64,000 nt of DNA from Phnomibacter ginsenosidimutans (lineage in GTDB: Bacteria > Bacteroidota > Bacteroidia > Chitinophagales > Chitinophagaceae): contig NZ_CP046566.1 of assembly GCF_009740285.1 (NCBI RefSeq), positions 3,944,658 through 4,008,657 on the forward strand, written 5' to 3'. Below the pieces are notes generated by a model. It made no database searches, was not told the origin of the DNA, and saw nothing but the letters and a program-made list of their open reading frames with translations. The position numbers were made by a program, and so were the translations under genes. Shown here piece after piece: positions 5,252 through 54,870 of this stretch. Every line of letters begins with the position of its first letter. The first letter of the stretch is position 1.

Positions 5252-5856
5252 GCCCCAGCGGGGCAATATTTTGGTAACTTGGGGTATCACTAAATCAACA
5301 AAGCCCCTTCGGGGCGATACACGTATGGCAAATACTTATTCTCAAATTACTATTCATGCTGTATTTGCAGTAAAACTCAGGCAGAATTTCATTGCTAAAG
5401 AATGGCGTGATCAGTTGCATCAATACATCGCAGGAATAATAGCGAATAAAGGAGCAAAGCCCTTAGCTGTTGGAGGATGGCAAGACCATGTTCATGTTTT
5501 ATTCGGGATGCCCGTTACTACATGTATTGCCGACTTGATGAGTGCTGTAAAAGCGAGTAGTAGTTCATGGATAAATCAACAACAATTTATTAAAGGGAAA
5601 TTTGAATGGCAGGCTGGCTATGGTGCATTTTCATTCGCCAAGAGTCAACGGGACATTGTGATTAAATACATCATGAATCAAGAAGAACATCATCATCAAA
5701 AAACTTTTAAAGAGGAGTACATAAAAATGCTAACTGATTTTGATATTGCGTATGACACAAAATACTTGTTTGAGTTTTACGACTAAAAATTCCGCCCCGC
5801 CGGGGCTACACACATAAAACAACATCGCTTGTTACCAAAATACCAACCCTACGGGC
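5252..5856. mobile_element. Small IS200-like element with flanking palindromes
   Basis: A single-gene element. Three copies of GCCCC-NNN-GGGGC occur: 5252-5264 (AGC), 5303-5315 (TTC) and 5794-5806 (GCC). A 12-bp inverted repeat, TATTTTGGTAAC at 5267-5278 and GTTACCAAAATA at 5831-5842, encloses the transposase gene. A weaker CCC-TAC-GGG stem follows at 5847-5855. Subterminal hairpins are what Y1 HUH transposases recognise in IS200/IS605 and REP-type elements. Exact ends are not proven. Confidence 0.65.
5325..5786 (+). CDS. IS200/IS605-like (Y1, HUH) transposase
   Basis: 153 residues, the usual size for a TnpA-like Y1 transposase. Visible motifs are the HUH metal site in WQDHVHVLFGM and the C-terminal KYIMNQEEHHHQKTF segment with the presumed catalytic tyrosine. 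The enzyme nicks and rejoins single-stranded DNA at hairpins. The ATG at 5325 follows a GCCCC palindrome directly; the longer reading from 5271 would run through palindromes and is rejected. There is no tnpB partner. It could equally be a REP-associated (RAYT-type) domesticated transposase. Confidence 0.85.
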   Translation: MANTYSQITIHAVFAVKLRQNFIAKEWRDQLHQYIAGIIANKGAKPLAVGGWQDHVHVLFGMPVTTCIADLMSAVKASSSSWINQQQFIKGKFEWQAGYGAFSFAKSQRDIVIKYIMNQEEHHHQKTFKEEYIKMLTDFDIAYDTKYLFEFYD

Positions 5857-5987: not shown

Positions 5988-7841
5988 ATGAAGCAAATGA
6001 TTATTGTTTGTTTGGCATGGCTACTCATCAGCAGCACAACTGCACAAACCGTTATCCGGTACAATCAGCTGGGCTATACTACCCGCAGCAGCAAAGTAGT
6101 GGTACTAGGCAGTAAGGATCCCCTCTTCAAATTGCAGCAGTACAAGCTCATTGCATTGCATACAGGCAAAGCCGTGCTGCAGGCGAGCAAGCCCACGGCA
6201 AAAGACTTTGGCGCCTACGGTCCGTTCAAGCATAGCTACCGCATCAATCTGACAAGCGTGGTACAGCCCGGAGTGTATCAATTGTTGGTCAACGACAGCA
6301 TTCGCAGCGGCATCATTCGCATTGGCGATGACGTGTACAAAGGCAGCGCCGACTTTTGCCTGCGGTACATGCGGCAGCAGCGTTGTGGCTTCAATCCTTT
6401 TCTGCAAGACAGCTGCCATACCCACGATGGTTACAGCATTTATGGCGAAAAAGCCGGCATACCCGATGGTACGTATTTCGATGCCACCGGTGGTTGGCAC
6501 GATGCCAGCGATTACCTGCAATACACTACCACTACAGCCAATGCCATTTATCATTTGCTGATGGCCTACCGCGACAACCCGCATGCATTTGCCGATACCA
6601 AACAGGCCAACGGTCTGGAAGGAAAAAACGGCACCCCCGATGTGCTGGATGAAGCGAAGTGGGGCCTCGACTGGCTGCTGAAAATGCACCCCAAGGCCGA
6701 TGTGATGTTTGCCCAACTGGCCGACGACCGCGACCACATCAGCATGCGGATGCCGGCGCAAGATTCGCAATATGGTCGTGGCTTTCAGCGGCCCTTGTAT
6801 TTCCTTACCGGCGAGCCACAAGGACTGGGCAAGTATCAAAACAAAACCGAGGGAACCACCTCGATAGCGGCGAAGTTTAGTAGTGCATTTGCGTTGGGAG
6901 CCAGGACATATTTCAATCTACCTGTCATTGATTCAAATTATGTAAGAGCACTTACTAGTCATGCAAGAACAGCCCGAGACTTTGCCTACAAGAAAAAAGG
7001 ATATACCAATACAGCGCCGAACAGGGCACCCTATTACTACGCTGAAAGCAATTGGGTAGATGACGCAGAATTGATGGAAGCATCATTGATTTTCATTGAT
7101 GGTTTTGATGATGCTTACAGACGTGGCAGGTTTCGAACAGCCTACGATTTTGCGAAGCTGGAAAGAATAACTCCATGGCTAGGCGCCGACACTGCTACGC
7201 ATTACCAATGGTACCCCTTTATTAATGTGGGCCATCGGGAATTGGCCAATGTGGTTGCAGATAAAAAAATCAAAGATTCACTCATCGGCTTTTACCGGCA
7301 GGGCATTGAAAAGGTATGGGCCAAGGCCAAACAAAATGCCTTTTATCGTGGCGTGCCTTTTATTTGGTGCAGCAATAACCTCACCACCAGTTTTGCCACG
7401 CAATGCCTGTGGTACCGCCAGCTGAGCGGCAGCAACCAGTATGAAGAACTGGAGCAGGCCAATATTGATTGGTTGTTTGGCACCAACCCCTGGGGTACCA
7501 GCATGGTGTATGGTTTGCCTGCCTGGGGCGATACACCTGCCGACCCGCATTCGGCATTTACCCACCTCAAAAACTATCCCATTGATGGTGGCCTCATTGA
7601 TGGGCCGGTATACACGTCCATTTTCAAAGGGCTGATTGGCCTTACCCTTTACCAACCCGATGAATATGCCGAATGGCAAAGCGACCTGGCCGTGTATCAC
7701 GATGATTATGGCGACTATAGCACCAACGAACCCACCATGGATGGTACGGCGAGTTTGATCATCTGTTGTCGGCGTTGGAAAACAAACCCTCCCAAACCCC
7801 TGCCATGCCGGCAGGCAGGCTCCCTGAAAGGAGGACTTTGA
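5988..7841 (+). CDS. Glycoside hydrolase family 9 protein, N-terminal part of a frameshifted GH9-deacetylase fusion
   Basis: Starts at the ATG at 5988 with a signal peptide (ISSTTAQ). An N-terminal Ig-like cellulase domain (about 20-110, from VIRYNQLGY) precedes the GH9 (alpha/alpha)6 barrel. The catalytic aspartate motif is GGWHDASDY and the general-acid glutamate is in YSTNEPTMDG, so the active site is complete. GH9 enzymes are mostly endoglucanases. After DGTAS the reading frame changes: the natural continuation (DHLLSALE) is in the frame of the downstream NodB-like domain. The last ~28 residues of this frame look random. One base missing at 7755-7756 would give a single protein of about 859 residues. 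Confidence 0.85.
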   Translation: MKQMIIVCLAWLLISSTTAQTVIRYNQLGYTTRSSKVVVLGSKDPLFKLQQYKLIALHTGKAVLQASKPTAKDFGAYGPFKHSYRINLTSVVQPGVYQLLVNDSIRSGIIRIGDDVYKGSADFCLRYMRQQRCGFNPFLQDSCHTHDGYSIYGEKAGIPDGTYFDATGGWHDASDYLQYTTTTANAIYHLLMAYRDNPHAFADTKQANGLEGKNGTPDVLDEAKWGLDWLLKMHPKADVMFAQLADDRDHISMRMPAQDSQYGRGFQRPLYFLTGEPQGLGKYQNKTEGTTSIAAKFSSAFALGARTYFNLPVIDSNYVRALTSHARTARDFAYKKKGYTNTAPNRAPYYYAESNWVDDAELMEASLIFIDGFDDAYRRGRFRTAYDFAKLERITPWLGADTATHYQWYPFINVGHRELANVVADKKIKDSLIGFYRQGIEKVWAKAKQNAFYRGVPFIWCSNNLTTSFATQCLWYRQLSGSNQYEELEQANIDWLFGTNPWGTSMVYGLPAWGDTPADPHSAFTHLKNYPIDGGLIDGPVYTSIFKGLIGLTLYQPDEYAEWQSDLAVYHDDYGDYSTNEPTMDGTASLIICCRRWKTNPPKPLPCRQAGSLKGGL

Positions 7842-8566
7842 AGCCTGATGGTCCTCAAAGTGATGTCAAGAATTTTACCACGCAACTGGGTGCTATTATT
7901 AGGGCTGATAGTACAAGTAAACAACTGACGCTGGTGTTTACGGGTCATGAATATGCGGAAGGGATGCCGGCCATTTTGCAAACACTGCAGCAGGAAAATA
8001 TCAAGGCGGCTTTCTTTTTCACCGGCGATTTTGTAAGGCAATATCCGGCATTGGTAAAGCAAGCCGTGACGGCTGGGCACTACGTGGGCCCACATAGCAA
8101 CAAACATTTGCTGTATGCCGATTGGAAAAAACGGGACAGCACATTGGTGAACAAATCACTTTTTCAGCAAGACCTGATGGCGAATTACAAGGCGTTGCAA
8201 GCCGTGGGTATCAGCAGCCAAGAGGCGCCCTATTTTTTACCGCCTTACGAATGGTACAATCAGCAAATTGCCCATTGGACCAACGAGTTGGGGCTGCAGC
8301 TCATTTGCCATACGCCCGGCACCCTGAGTGCCGCAGACTACACCCTCAATACCGACAAGAATTACCGGAGCAGCAAAGAGATTTTCCAATCGATTATACA
8401 CAAAGCGCAGCAGCCCAATGGGTTGTACGGTTATCTGTTGTTGATGCATGCCGGCGCCGGCTCTAATCGCAGCGACCCCTTTCATCAAGAACTGCCTGCA
8501 CTTGTTAAAAAGTTGAAAAAGTTGGGTTATCGGTTCCAAAATCTGCCCCCGATTTTGAACCATTGA
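7757..8566 (+). CDS. NodB-like polysaccharide deacetylase domain, C-terminal part of the GH9 fusion
   Basis: Has no credible start of its own: the frame opens inside the GH9 end, at the GAT at 7757. After a palindrome-rich linker it shows a carbohydrate-esterase-4 (NodB) fold: LVFTGHEYAEG in place of motif 1 (TFDDG), AAFFFTGDFV, motif 2 as HSNKH, FLPPYEWYN for motif 3, and LLLMHAG for motif 5. The usual motif 1 Asp pair is replaced, so metal binding and activity may be altered. Deacetylation or deacylation of a glycan together with GH9 cleavage is an inference. Confidence 0.75.
   Translation, partial: DHLLSALENKPSQTPAMPAGRLPERRTLKPDGPQSDVKNFTTQLGAIIRADSTSKQLTLVFTGHEYAEGMPAILQTLQQENIKAAFFFTGDFVRQYPALVKQAVTAGHYVGPHSNKHLLYADWKKRDSTLVNKSLFQQDLMANYKALQAVGISSQEAPYFLPPYEWYNQQIAHWTNELGLQLICHTPGTLSAADYTLNTDKNYRSSKEIFQSIIHKAQQPNGLYGYLLLMHAGAGSNRSDPFHQELPALVKKLKKLGYRFQNLPPILNH
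7786..7862. repeat. Palindrome-rich insert in the GH9/deacetylase linker
   Basis: The linker DNA holds nested dyads: CCTGCC/GGCAGG (7799-7804 and 7810-7815), a CTCC/GGAG pair, and ACTTTGA/TCAAAGT (7835-7841 and 7855-7861). It encodes a Pro/Arg-rich stretch with no domain similarity. The wording resembles short intergenic palindromes that are common in this phylum, and suggests a repeat that inserted in frame. Confidence 0.45.
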
Positions 8567-11162: not shown

Positions 11163-12547
11163 TCAGAAGCCCACAATAGCTTGCAATACCACTCCGTTGA
11201 ATTTACCACTAGAGCGGATGTCTGATGTTGGGAAGTCTTCGTACTTCTGATTTACGATTTCACCCTTCATCAAAATATTTTCGGTGATGAACCAACCAGC
11301 ACCCAGTGCCAGGCGGCTAATTTTTTGATCGTTGCTGTTGCTGGCAATCATTTGACCACCTTACAGTGTTGTAACGTACGCCCAGGAAGAAGTTTTCCTT
11401 AGCACCTACGCGGTAGATACCGTCGATAGCAAACTGATTTACTGAACGCTTGTTGAAGTTGGCAATCTTTTCAGCAATGGTGCGACCCTTAGCATTTTCG
11501 ATGGTACCAAAGAGTTCGAAACCACCTGCTTTCAGGAAAGCGTTCAACTGCATGGCAGTGATTTGCTGAGAGAAGTTCAAACCATTCAAACGGCCAGAGA
11601 AAGCGTTGGCAGTTGTAGTGGCACCAGTTGGTTCCATTACGAAAGAATAGTTGCTACCAGTACGGTCACCTGCCATCAGGGTACTACGACCATCGTTGTT
11701 GTTGTGATACAAAGAACCAGTTACACGTACACGTACTTTATCGCTTACATTACCATCGTAGCCAATTTTACCATAGATAGAAGGACCACGCTTGTAAGTA
11801 GTAGTACCAGAGATGGGGGTTTGATAACCACCGTTGATCGAAACCATTGCTTACGCCCAGCATACCAATGGCACCGCCTTTCAGATAGTACACTTCAGCT
11901 GCTACTTCAGTGGCAAATGCATCCATGATGTAGTTTTCGATGAAGGGGTTGTACAGTGCGTGGCCACCATCAGAACGACGGAAGTGTTGGTCACCGTAGT
12001 TGATTTCGAAGTGGCCGGCTTTAATCCGTACATTCTTCATGATGTTGTCGAAGAATTCGCCTTTGAAAGGAAGCTTATCCATTTGCAGGTAGCCACCTTT
12101 TACCCAAGTTTCGTTGTGGTGGTGAGAAGACAGGTAAGTAGTCACGTTCAATTGAATACCTTCTGCCAGCATCGCATCCAGATACAGGTTGGCTTGTGCA
12201 ATGCTAAAGCCAGAAGCTAAGCGAGGATACAGTTCGGGAGTAGTAGCGCTGGTACCCAGGCTGCGGGCATTTTCATGCTCCAGCTTTTGCCACTGCTGTG
12301 TAAAACCGGTACCAAAGCGAACCTTTACACCATCAAATGGAGCGGGAGCTTGTTTGGCTGGTTCAAATACGTTTACACCAGATTTGTCGTATTGGCGGAA
12401 GTTGGTCCAATAGTTGTCTTTTTGTTCTTTTTTCTCAGCACGTTTTGCTTTTTTCTCAGCTTTTTCGTCTTGTGCGAAGCTGCTGGCAGGCATCAGGCCT
12501 AATGCGGCAATTGTAAATGCGGCCAGATACAGAGAAATCTTTTTCAT
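11163..12547 (-). CDS. Outer-membrane porin-like protein, two frameshifts
   Basis: One gene read in three frames. Part 1 begins at the ATG at 12547 with a signal peptide (ASSFAQ) and an acidic/lysine stretch; part 2 and part 3 continue the same beta-barrel. Extra single bases explain both breaks: an A in the AAA run at 11841-11845 (GGT-T-TCG on the coding strand), and one T at 11361-11362. Corrected length is about 460 residues, ending in a barrel strand with a terminal phenylalanine (LQAIVGF). The family resembles phosphate-selective porin O/P. It lies downstream of a YceI gene, probably as one operon. Confidence 0.75.
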
Positions 12548-12617
12548 GATACAGATTTTGGTTAGAAAATTGTTGGGGTTTCTGATTATCGTTCTAATCA
12601 ACACTAATATGCGTACG

Positions 12618-54498: not shown

Positions 54499-54825
54499 GG
54501 ACGCGGATTTTTACGGATGGATACAGGATTTGCGCTGATGAATTATGTCTGAATTGATTCGCCGCAGATTCACGGATTATTCGGTTTTAAATTCACTCTG
54601 CAAAAACTTCGTGTTCCTTTGTGCCTTCTTAGCGCCTTGGTGGTTCAAAAATCTCCGTATTGGGACGCGGATTTTTACGGATGGATACAGGTTTTGCGCT
54701 GATGAATTATGTTTGGATTGATGCGCCGCAGATTCACGGGCTATTCGGTTTTAAATTCACTCTGCAAAAACTTCGTGTTCCTTTGTGCCTTCTTAGCGCC
54801 TTGGTGGTTCAAAAATCTCCGTATT
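54499..54825. repeat. Tandem duplication of a ~163-bp intergenic repeat
   Basis: Unit 1 is 54499-54661 and unit 2 is 54663-54825 (period 164), with only about half a dozen differences. Each unit contains GACGCGGATTTTTACGGATGG, GCCGCAGATTCACGG, and TTTGTGCCTTCTTAGCGCC-type strings. It has no real ORF; the reading frames across it are artefacts. It fills most of the 374-bp gap between the exonuclease and DUF4286 genes. Confidence 0.9.
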
Positions 54826-54870
54826 CGGCAAGTGCAATAAATACTCTCTCTTAAGCACATTTGTATTTCT

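Follow-up and report, generated by a model that had tools for sequence, protein, structure and literature searches.

The question raised by this locus is whether a NodB-like deacetylase domain that lacks its motif-1 aspartates, standing directly behind a family 9 glycoside hydrolase (GH9) domain, is still an enzyme and works with its partner. The locus lies in the genome of Phnomibacter ginsenosidimutans (4.37 Mb in one contig, 99.39% complete); the window referred to below is the whole stretch of 64,000 nt that was analysed (GCF_009740285.1, NZ_CP046566.1 positions 3,944,658-4,008,657, forward strand). In the window the GH9 and NodB-like halves are read as two open reading frames (ORFs) that overlap at 7766-7841. 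Feature coordinates are collected in Table 1, and residues of the NodB-like domain are numbered so that window position 7841 begins residue 1. We propose, with modest confidence, that the locus encodes a two-domain carbohydrate-processing enzyme in which GH9 is combined with a distinct subfamily of NodB-fold esterases with a rebuilt metal site.

The NodB-like ORF matches PF01522 in Pfam with an E value of 7.3e-17 (61.9 bits against a cut-off of 23.1). The initial annotation of the sequence had pointed to FTGHEYAEG in the place of motif 1, with HSNKH and LMHAG kept; this is what the alignment gives, the change being common to every homologue compared and motif 3 being altered as well. The alignment holds 90 distinct domains after removal of duplicates: 81 of the family, including that of the window (tblastn E <1e-30 to the window's domain), and nine canonical CE4 controls from related genomes, namely those reaching E 1e-6, other canonical rows being left out. 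All nine controls contain FDDGP, HSxxH or HTxxH, the motif-3 Arg and Gly, the motif-4 Asp and the motif-5 His, with D, D, R and G at positions 34, 35, 133 and 137. A motif-1 Asp occurs at either position in none of the 81 family members, compared with both positions in 9/9 controls. Position 36 of the family is D (41), H (30) or G (10) and position 37 is E (62), D (13), S (3), T (2) or F (1), with an acid at one or the other in 81/81; position 40 is D or E in 80/81. In motif 3, Arg is replaced by Leu, Met or Ile and Gly by Glu throughout the 81. Nine residues (H85, H89, P134, E137, W138, D166, H203, G205 and R210) are invariant, position 212 (D212 in the window) is D or E in every sequence and S86 is kept in 80 of them. 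R210 is aligned to a gap in all nine controls. Motif 1 has 38 spellings in the family, that of the window being one. The altered site is a trait of the whole family, and a chance or one-off change in the window's gene is excluded by its presence in 81/81 sequences. In a quick tree the variant clade is separated from the nine canonical rows at 99% in the Shimodaira-Hasegawa-like approximate likelihood ratio test. Because Asp of motif 4 and His of motif 5 persist along with the His pair, and new invariant residues are present, the domain is probably a rewired, metal-dependent esterase and not a decayed one.

Canonical CE4/NodB deacetylases (PF01522; PdaA, 1ny1/1w17; Bc1960, 4l1g; BA0150, 4m1b) share with this family the NodB fold, the motif-2 His pair, the motif-4 Asp and the motif-5 His. 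Unlike them, the family has neither the motif-1 Asp pair nor the motif-3 Arg, and has an invariant Glu-Trp in motif 3 and an Arg after motif 5. PuuE allantoinase (3cl6) is likewise a NodB fold without the motif-1 Asp pair; according to the part of a NodB survey available to us (PMC10967932), it lost both Asp residues together with the second motif-2 His and is metal-free, whereas H89 is kept in 81/81 here. The same part of the survey describes a chitin-deacetylase relative, probably inactive, from which the catalytic Asp, the Arg and each of the two His have been lost, and a class, NodB2, that takes its Arg from another part of the chain; by analogy, NodB2 may be a precedent for R210 as a substitute Arg. 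The combination seen here, loss of both Asp residues and the Arg with both His kept, is not met in that part of the survey.

Far from being always separate in homologues, the two domains are commonly fused. Six of nine congeneric genomes give a strong match, all six in one open frame of 860-896 aa, so that the joining of the domains is not due to chance; the initial proposal that the two halves form one gene once a single base is added is thereby borne out. Among the 58 relatives that were compared together with the organism's own genome (59 in all), 17 give a strong match (E 3e-57 or better), with an open frame of 802-896 aa in 14, the six congeners among them, and a shorter one in three. In the phylum, the NodB-like domain was found in 41 of 395 genomes (own included) at E 1.7e-117 to 9.3e-86; since no match falls between 9.3e-86 and the chosen cut-off of 1e-30, it forms a discrete family. 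The GH9 subtype, for which a cut-off of 1e-150 was chosen, is present in 40/395 genomes and is set off from other GH9 by a gap from 7e-159 to 1.5e-79. Both occur together in 36 genomes, the NodB-like domain only in five, the GH9 subtype only in four and neither in 350 (Fisher p 4e-41, with genomes treated as independent although they are not); at most seven NodB and three GH9 first-look candidates were scored per genome, and absences are provisional. The 41 carriers comprise 22 with a fusion, nine with adjacent genes (the window is counted here owing to its frame break), one with the genes far apart on the same contig, four with them on different contigs and five without the GH9 subtype; a second NodB-like copy in genome G298 is outside this count. 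The separate form, beside GH9 or one gene away, occurs in Saprospiraceae, a Lewinellaceae, Rufibacter, Pedobacter aquatilis and one Verrucomicrobiota record, and in the Verrucomicrobiota locus the NodB-like domain is itself fused to HEAT repeats. On the tree the fused or separate state changes at least 11 times, few of these changes being forced by well-supported branches (three for the fused label); the window's gene was set as fused, and the label 'alone' includes short loci where a more distant GH9 would escape. In a Lewinella record, a standalone variant NodB-like gene has as its neighbour a fusion of a SASA acetylesterase with a further PF01522 domain (L062:4898-7573).

The GH9 half matches PF00759 at E 5.3e-63 (214.3 bits against a cut-off of 27.7) and CelD_N at E 2.9e-8. 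The two Asp residues in HDASD and the Glu in STNEP, which we take to have the catalytic roles usual in GH9, are invariant in alignments of nine and 35 rows. By sequence the best match is 3x17 (E 1.7e-43), compared with E 3e-9 to 1.1e-5 for the exo-glucosaminidase group 3h7l, 5dgq and 6gdt, and by fold, using a model of the intact relative L033, endoglucanases are on top (Z scores of 29-33), with Vibrio-type exo-glucosaminidases at about 27. The GH9 half thus appears closer to endoglucanases than to exo-glucosaminidases by both scores. The accessible part of PMC6096475 describes the corresponding catalytic residues for VC0615, as well as the long loops that close the cleft to one subsite and render GH9 of the VC0615/PBPRA0520 type exo-acting. 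The GH9 endoglucanases 3x17, J30 (5u0h) and BoGH9A (6dht) resemble the window's protein in having, by aligned ranges, a region N-terminal to GH9 and in sharing the catalytic-type Asp pair and Glu; unlike them, the present subtype carries or accompanies a rewired NodB-like domain. Within the GH9 region, window 6890-7167 (about 280 bases) is 43-59% identical to G006, against 88-100% around it, and 88-98% identical to G002; its G+C content is 0.43 compared with 0.50-0.53. It is probably a mosaic, recombined segment.

Single-chain proteins that combine a backbone-cleaving hydrolase and a NodB-fold esterase are published for GH10 and GH11 (PMC4928363, PMC6626019, as far as their available parts go), including MGM-5 (PMC6626019) and Xyl-CE4 (7ax7). 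There the partners are xylanases, unlike GH9 here, and the likeness is drawn on domain make-up, motif 1 aside. The part of PMC5238381 seen also names a locus from Bacteroides in which GH9 occurs together with CE4. In literature searches, in which longer result lists were covered in part, we recognised no description of a GH9 and rewired NodB-like pair or of its motif. The NodB fold and the pairing of glycoside hydrolase with esterase are already known; no match was found for the rewired, family-wide active site.

Gene neighbours do not single out a substrate. From 129 neighbour ORFs at 35 loci, 94 at 34 loci were searched (the other 35 being short or doubtful ORFs and those of L033), and family figures refer to the 25 commonest of 136. 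Locus L061 contains a ROK kinase, an MFS transporter, an SIS sugar isomerase, the NodB-like and GH9 genes and an SGSH-type sulfatase. Amino-sugar-type neighbours also occur at L064 (ROK and SIS), L056 (SGSH-type sulfatase), L058 and L121 (HGSNAT-like genes) and L123 (GH18). These hints from a minority of loci would point to amino sugars, while the GH9 comparisons favour a neutral beta-1,4-glucan; because the two differ, we commit ourselves only to an acylated beta-1,4-linked polymer.

In the mechanism that we propose, the enzyme would be secreted, the GH9 domain would cleave a backbone of the beta-1,4-linked glucan type and the NodB-fold domain would take off a substituent, most likely acetyl, that is attached by an ester or amide bond and otherwise blocks the GH9 cleft, with a flexible linker holding both domains together. 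The metal would still be bound by the two motif-2 His residues. The metal- and base-type Asp of motif 1 would be replaced by the acid one or two residues further on in the same loop, and probably also by the motif-3 Glu, and the motif-3 Arg probably by the invariant Arg after motif 5. A specialised domain with a different metal arrangement, as first suggested, is supported at the level of sequence, by the invariant His pair and the shifted acid, and the idea that it acts on the substrate of the GH9 domain agrees with the genetic coupling to one GH9 subtype.

The window's NodB-like domain, modelled from 54 sequences, is a NodB fold with a mean predicted local distance difference test score (pLDDT) of 94.5 and a predicted template-modelling score (pTM) of 0.91. 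The full-length model of the intact L033 protein is weaker (mean pLDDT 80.6, pTM 0.70), with values below 50 in the linker (605-632) and in segments 13-17, 250-266, 548-556, 572-584 and 715-724 (this final segment follows directly on motif 2), and fits two domains on a flexible linker. Several observations weigh against an active enzyme dedicated to GH9. The first three Foldseek matches of the domain are entries of BA3943, titled a pseudoenzyme, and BA0150, the top match in a second look (Z 25.9, rmsd 1.6 Å over 197 residues), is called catalytically inert in the part of PMC10967932 seen. Long branches meet between the canonical and variant rows of the tree (a warning from the tool). The five carriers without this GH9 subtype count here too, as does the beta-propeller fused to the NodB-like domain in two Aminicenantota loci scanned. 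Nor do the loci have neighbours in common apart from GH9: no Pfam family occurs in more than five of the 94 neighbours searched, and a shared operon from which the substrate might be named was rejected on this ground.

On such grounds the domain could be read as a pseudoenzyme turned into a carbohydrate-binding or scaffolding module for GH9, its conserved residues holding a sugar or a structural metal; the CE4 base and metal Asp residues and the motif-3 Arg are all gone, and fusion to a glycoside hydrolase is, as a matter of general knowledge, typical of binding modules. We consider this rather unlikely. In a binding module at least some of the metal-type His pair, the Asp of motif 4 and the His of motif 5 should have disappeared, yet all are present in 81/81 sequences, as is an acid at 36 or 37, and the second-look structure matches BA0150, Bc1960, BA3943 and PdaA, two of them (Bc1960 and PdaA) deacetylases, all lie within 2 Z units. 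BA0150 and BA3943 may thus be set against activity and Bc1960 and PdaA for it. The inactive esterase considered in the initial annotation is disfavoured because the whole catalytic-looking set is invariant and the ratio of nonsynonymous to synonymous substitution rates (dN/dS) is about 0.1, although the BA0150 and BA3943 folds leave it some weight. Still less probable, in our judgement, is a different NodB-fold reaction (amidohydrolase or other) of the kind carried out by PuuE, with the pair perhaps acting on an amino-sugar polymer. The absence of both motif-1 Asp residues in PuuE and the amino-sugar-type neighbours speak for it. However, the second motif-2 His lost in PuuE is invariant here, the GH9 half is nearer to endoglucanases, and sulfatase and SIS families are found only twice each among the 94 neighbours. 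A rewired esterase paired with GH9 is the reading that we prefer.

A separate uncertainty concerns the joining of the two halves in P. ginsenosidimutans itself. In the alignment to relatives that are 93-94% identical, the window is one base short at 7761, inside the last GH9 helix in the L033 model; beyond it the GH9 frame continues to a stop at 7841, and this interrupting stop is not present in any of the six congeners that have the gene. The relatives G006 (L033) and G002 (L034), 94% and 93% identical across the NodB-like domain, have single ORFs of 873 and 860 aa. An error of sequencing or assembly is the likeliest cause of the break, as judged from an 11 to 1 imbalance of interrupted ORFs and a low downstream dN/dS. 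The 136 kb alignment with G006 contains 39 isolated differences that change the frame. Long ORFs of one or both genomes hold 18 of these: 11 fall in an ORF of G006 only, one in an ORF of the window genome only and six in ORFs of both. The 11/12 one-sided breaks that fall in G006 ORFs correspond to a binomial p of 0.006, although some of the 11 may sit at ORF ends, outside real genes. A point against an error is that the window's own break, being inside long ORFs of both genomes, belongs to the six and not to the 11. For the NodB-like domain, dN/dS is 0.096 and 0.115 in the comparisons with the two relatives and 0.098 when these are compared with each other, and the domain is under purifying selection. 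We think it unlikely that the gene is truly split or decaying in this species, a real one-base loss leaving a GH9 protein with an altered last helix and a NodB-like domain either untranslated or separately translated. Such a split would concern the window's gene and is compatible with each reading of the family. The stop is present in a nearly complete, single-contig assembly, the site is no homopolymer and natural separate-gene forms next to GH9 do exist. The window's GH9 match, however, stops at model position 588/604 whereas the separate GH9 genes of G135, G193, G177, G411 and G060 reach 599-600, so that the break is not the natural split; the downstream dN/dS is no higher than between intact relatives; more single-base breaks lie nearby, two of them in one gene; and 9/18 listed breaks touch a run of at least four, although this one does not. 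The twice-broken gene (window 11166-12604, minus strand) is one ORF of 479 aa in G006 and has single-base breaks here at about 11360 and 11840; its product is presumably porin-like, as judged by eye with no family search. The breaks at 7761 and 11840 both come just after GATC. Programmed frameshifting at 7761 was ruled out by eye, as TTTGATCATCTG contains no slippery heptamer and the relatives need none.

Table 1. Features of the GH9 and NodB-like locus in window coordinates
Feature	Position	Strand	Basis or remark
GH9 protein ORF	5988-7841	+	Pfam: PF00759 and CelD_N
N-terminal hydrophobic stretch, putative Sec signal peptide (MKQMIIVCLAWLLISSTTAQ)	5988-6047	+	Judged from sequence, no predictor
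GH9 domain and CelD_N Ig-like domain	5988-7764	+	Pfam; alignments
Catalytic-type Asp pair, HDASD	6501-6503 and 6510-6512	+	Alignments
Catalytic-type acid Glu, STNEP	7728-7730	+	Alignments
One-base frame-change site, gap at 7761	7755-7766	+	Alignment to relatives
Inter-domain linker	7787-7888	+	Sequence; disordered by prediction in intact relative
NodB-like ORF	7766-8566	+	PF01522; TTG is merely the first start codon in frame, unsupported as start
Motif 1, FTGHEYAEG replacing FDDGP	7937-7963	+	Alignment
Motif 2, HSNKH, two metal-type His	8093-8107	+	Alignment
Motif 3, FLPPYEWYN replacing FRPPYG; Arg lost	8234-8260	+	Alignment
Motif 4, ADYT with invariant Asp	8333-8344	+	Alignment
Motif 5, LMHAG (8441-8455), then stretch with R210 and acidic D212	8441-8476	+	Alignment

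The linker contains an inverted-repeat-like stretch at about 7800-7845 that is also found in L033 and L007 (L035), is shortened in L034 and is missing from L006. A mobile or widespread repeat was considered and rejected: the genome holds one further partial copy, 81% identical (G000:C1:3663995-3664046), and the core pattern gives three matches (the window's own and, with two mismatches each, that copy and a third site) against two for the reversed control. A broader pattern gave 0/60 family genomes, but also missed the window's own copy, so that this negative carries little weight. Directly upstream of the GH9 gene, an IS200/Y1-type transposase gene is found at 5328-5786 (PF01797, E 7.4e-25). 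The segment 5164-5944 is missing from G006, in which 23 bases separate the blocks on either side of it. Elsewhere in the window, 54499-54826 is a tandem pair of 164-base units that are 96% alike.

More tentatively than the two-domain enzyme itself, we suggest that these domains make up a NodB-fold family of carbohydrate esterases that is new. Its members may be active metal enzymes in which the metal-binding carboxylate is shifted along loop 1, the motif-3 Glu serves as base and an Arg after motif 5 takes the place of the lost one. They would be retained as partners of a single GH9 subtype: in Bacteroidota as a fusion or a neighbouring gene, and in Verrucomicrobiota (at least one genome) as a neighbouring gene. 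The family passes the Pfam cut-off and would be annotated as 'polysaccharide deacetylase', yet CE4 motif 1 is gone from all 81 members compared. It offers a clean test case of whether a NodB active site can be rebuilt around a shifted carboxylate, and its pairing with one GH9 subtype suggests that an acylated beta-1,4-linked polymer is the substrate.

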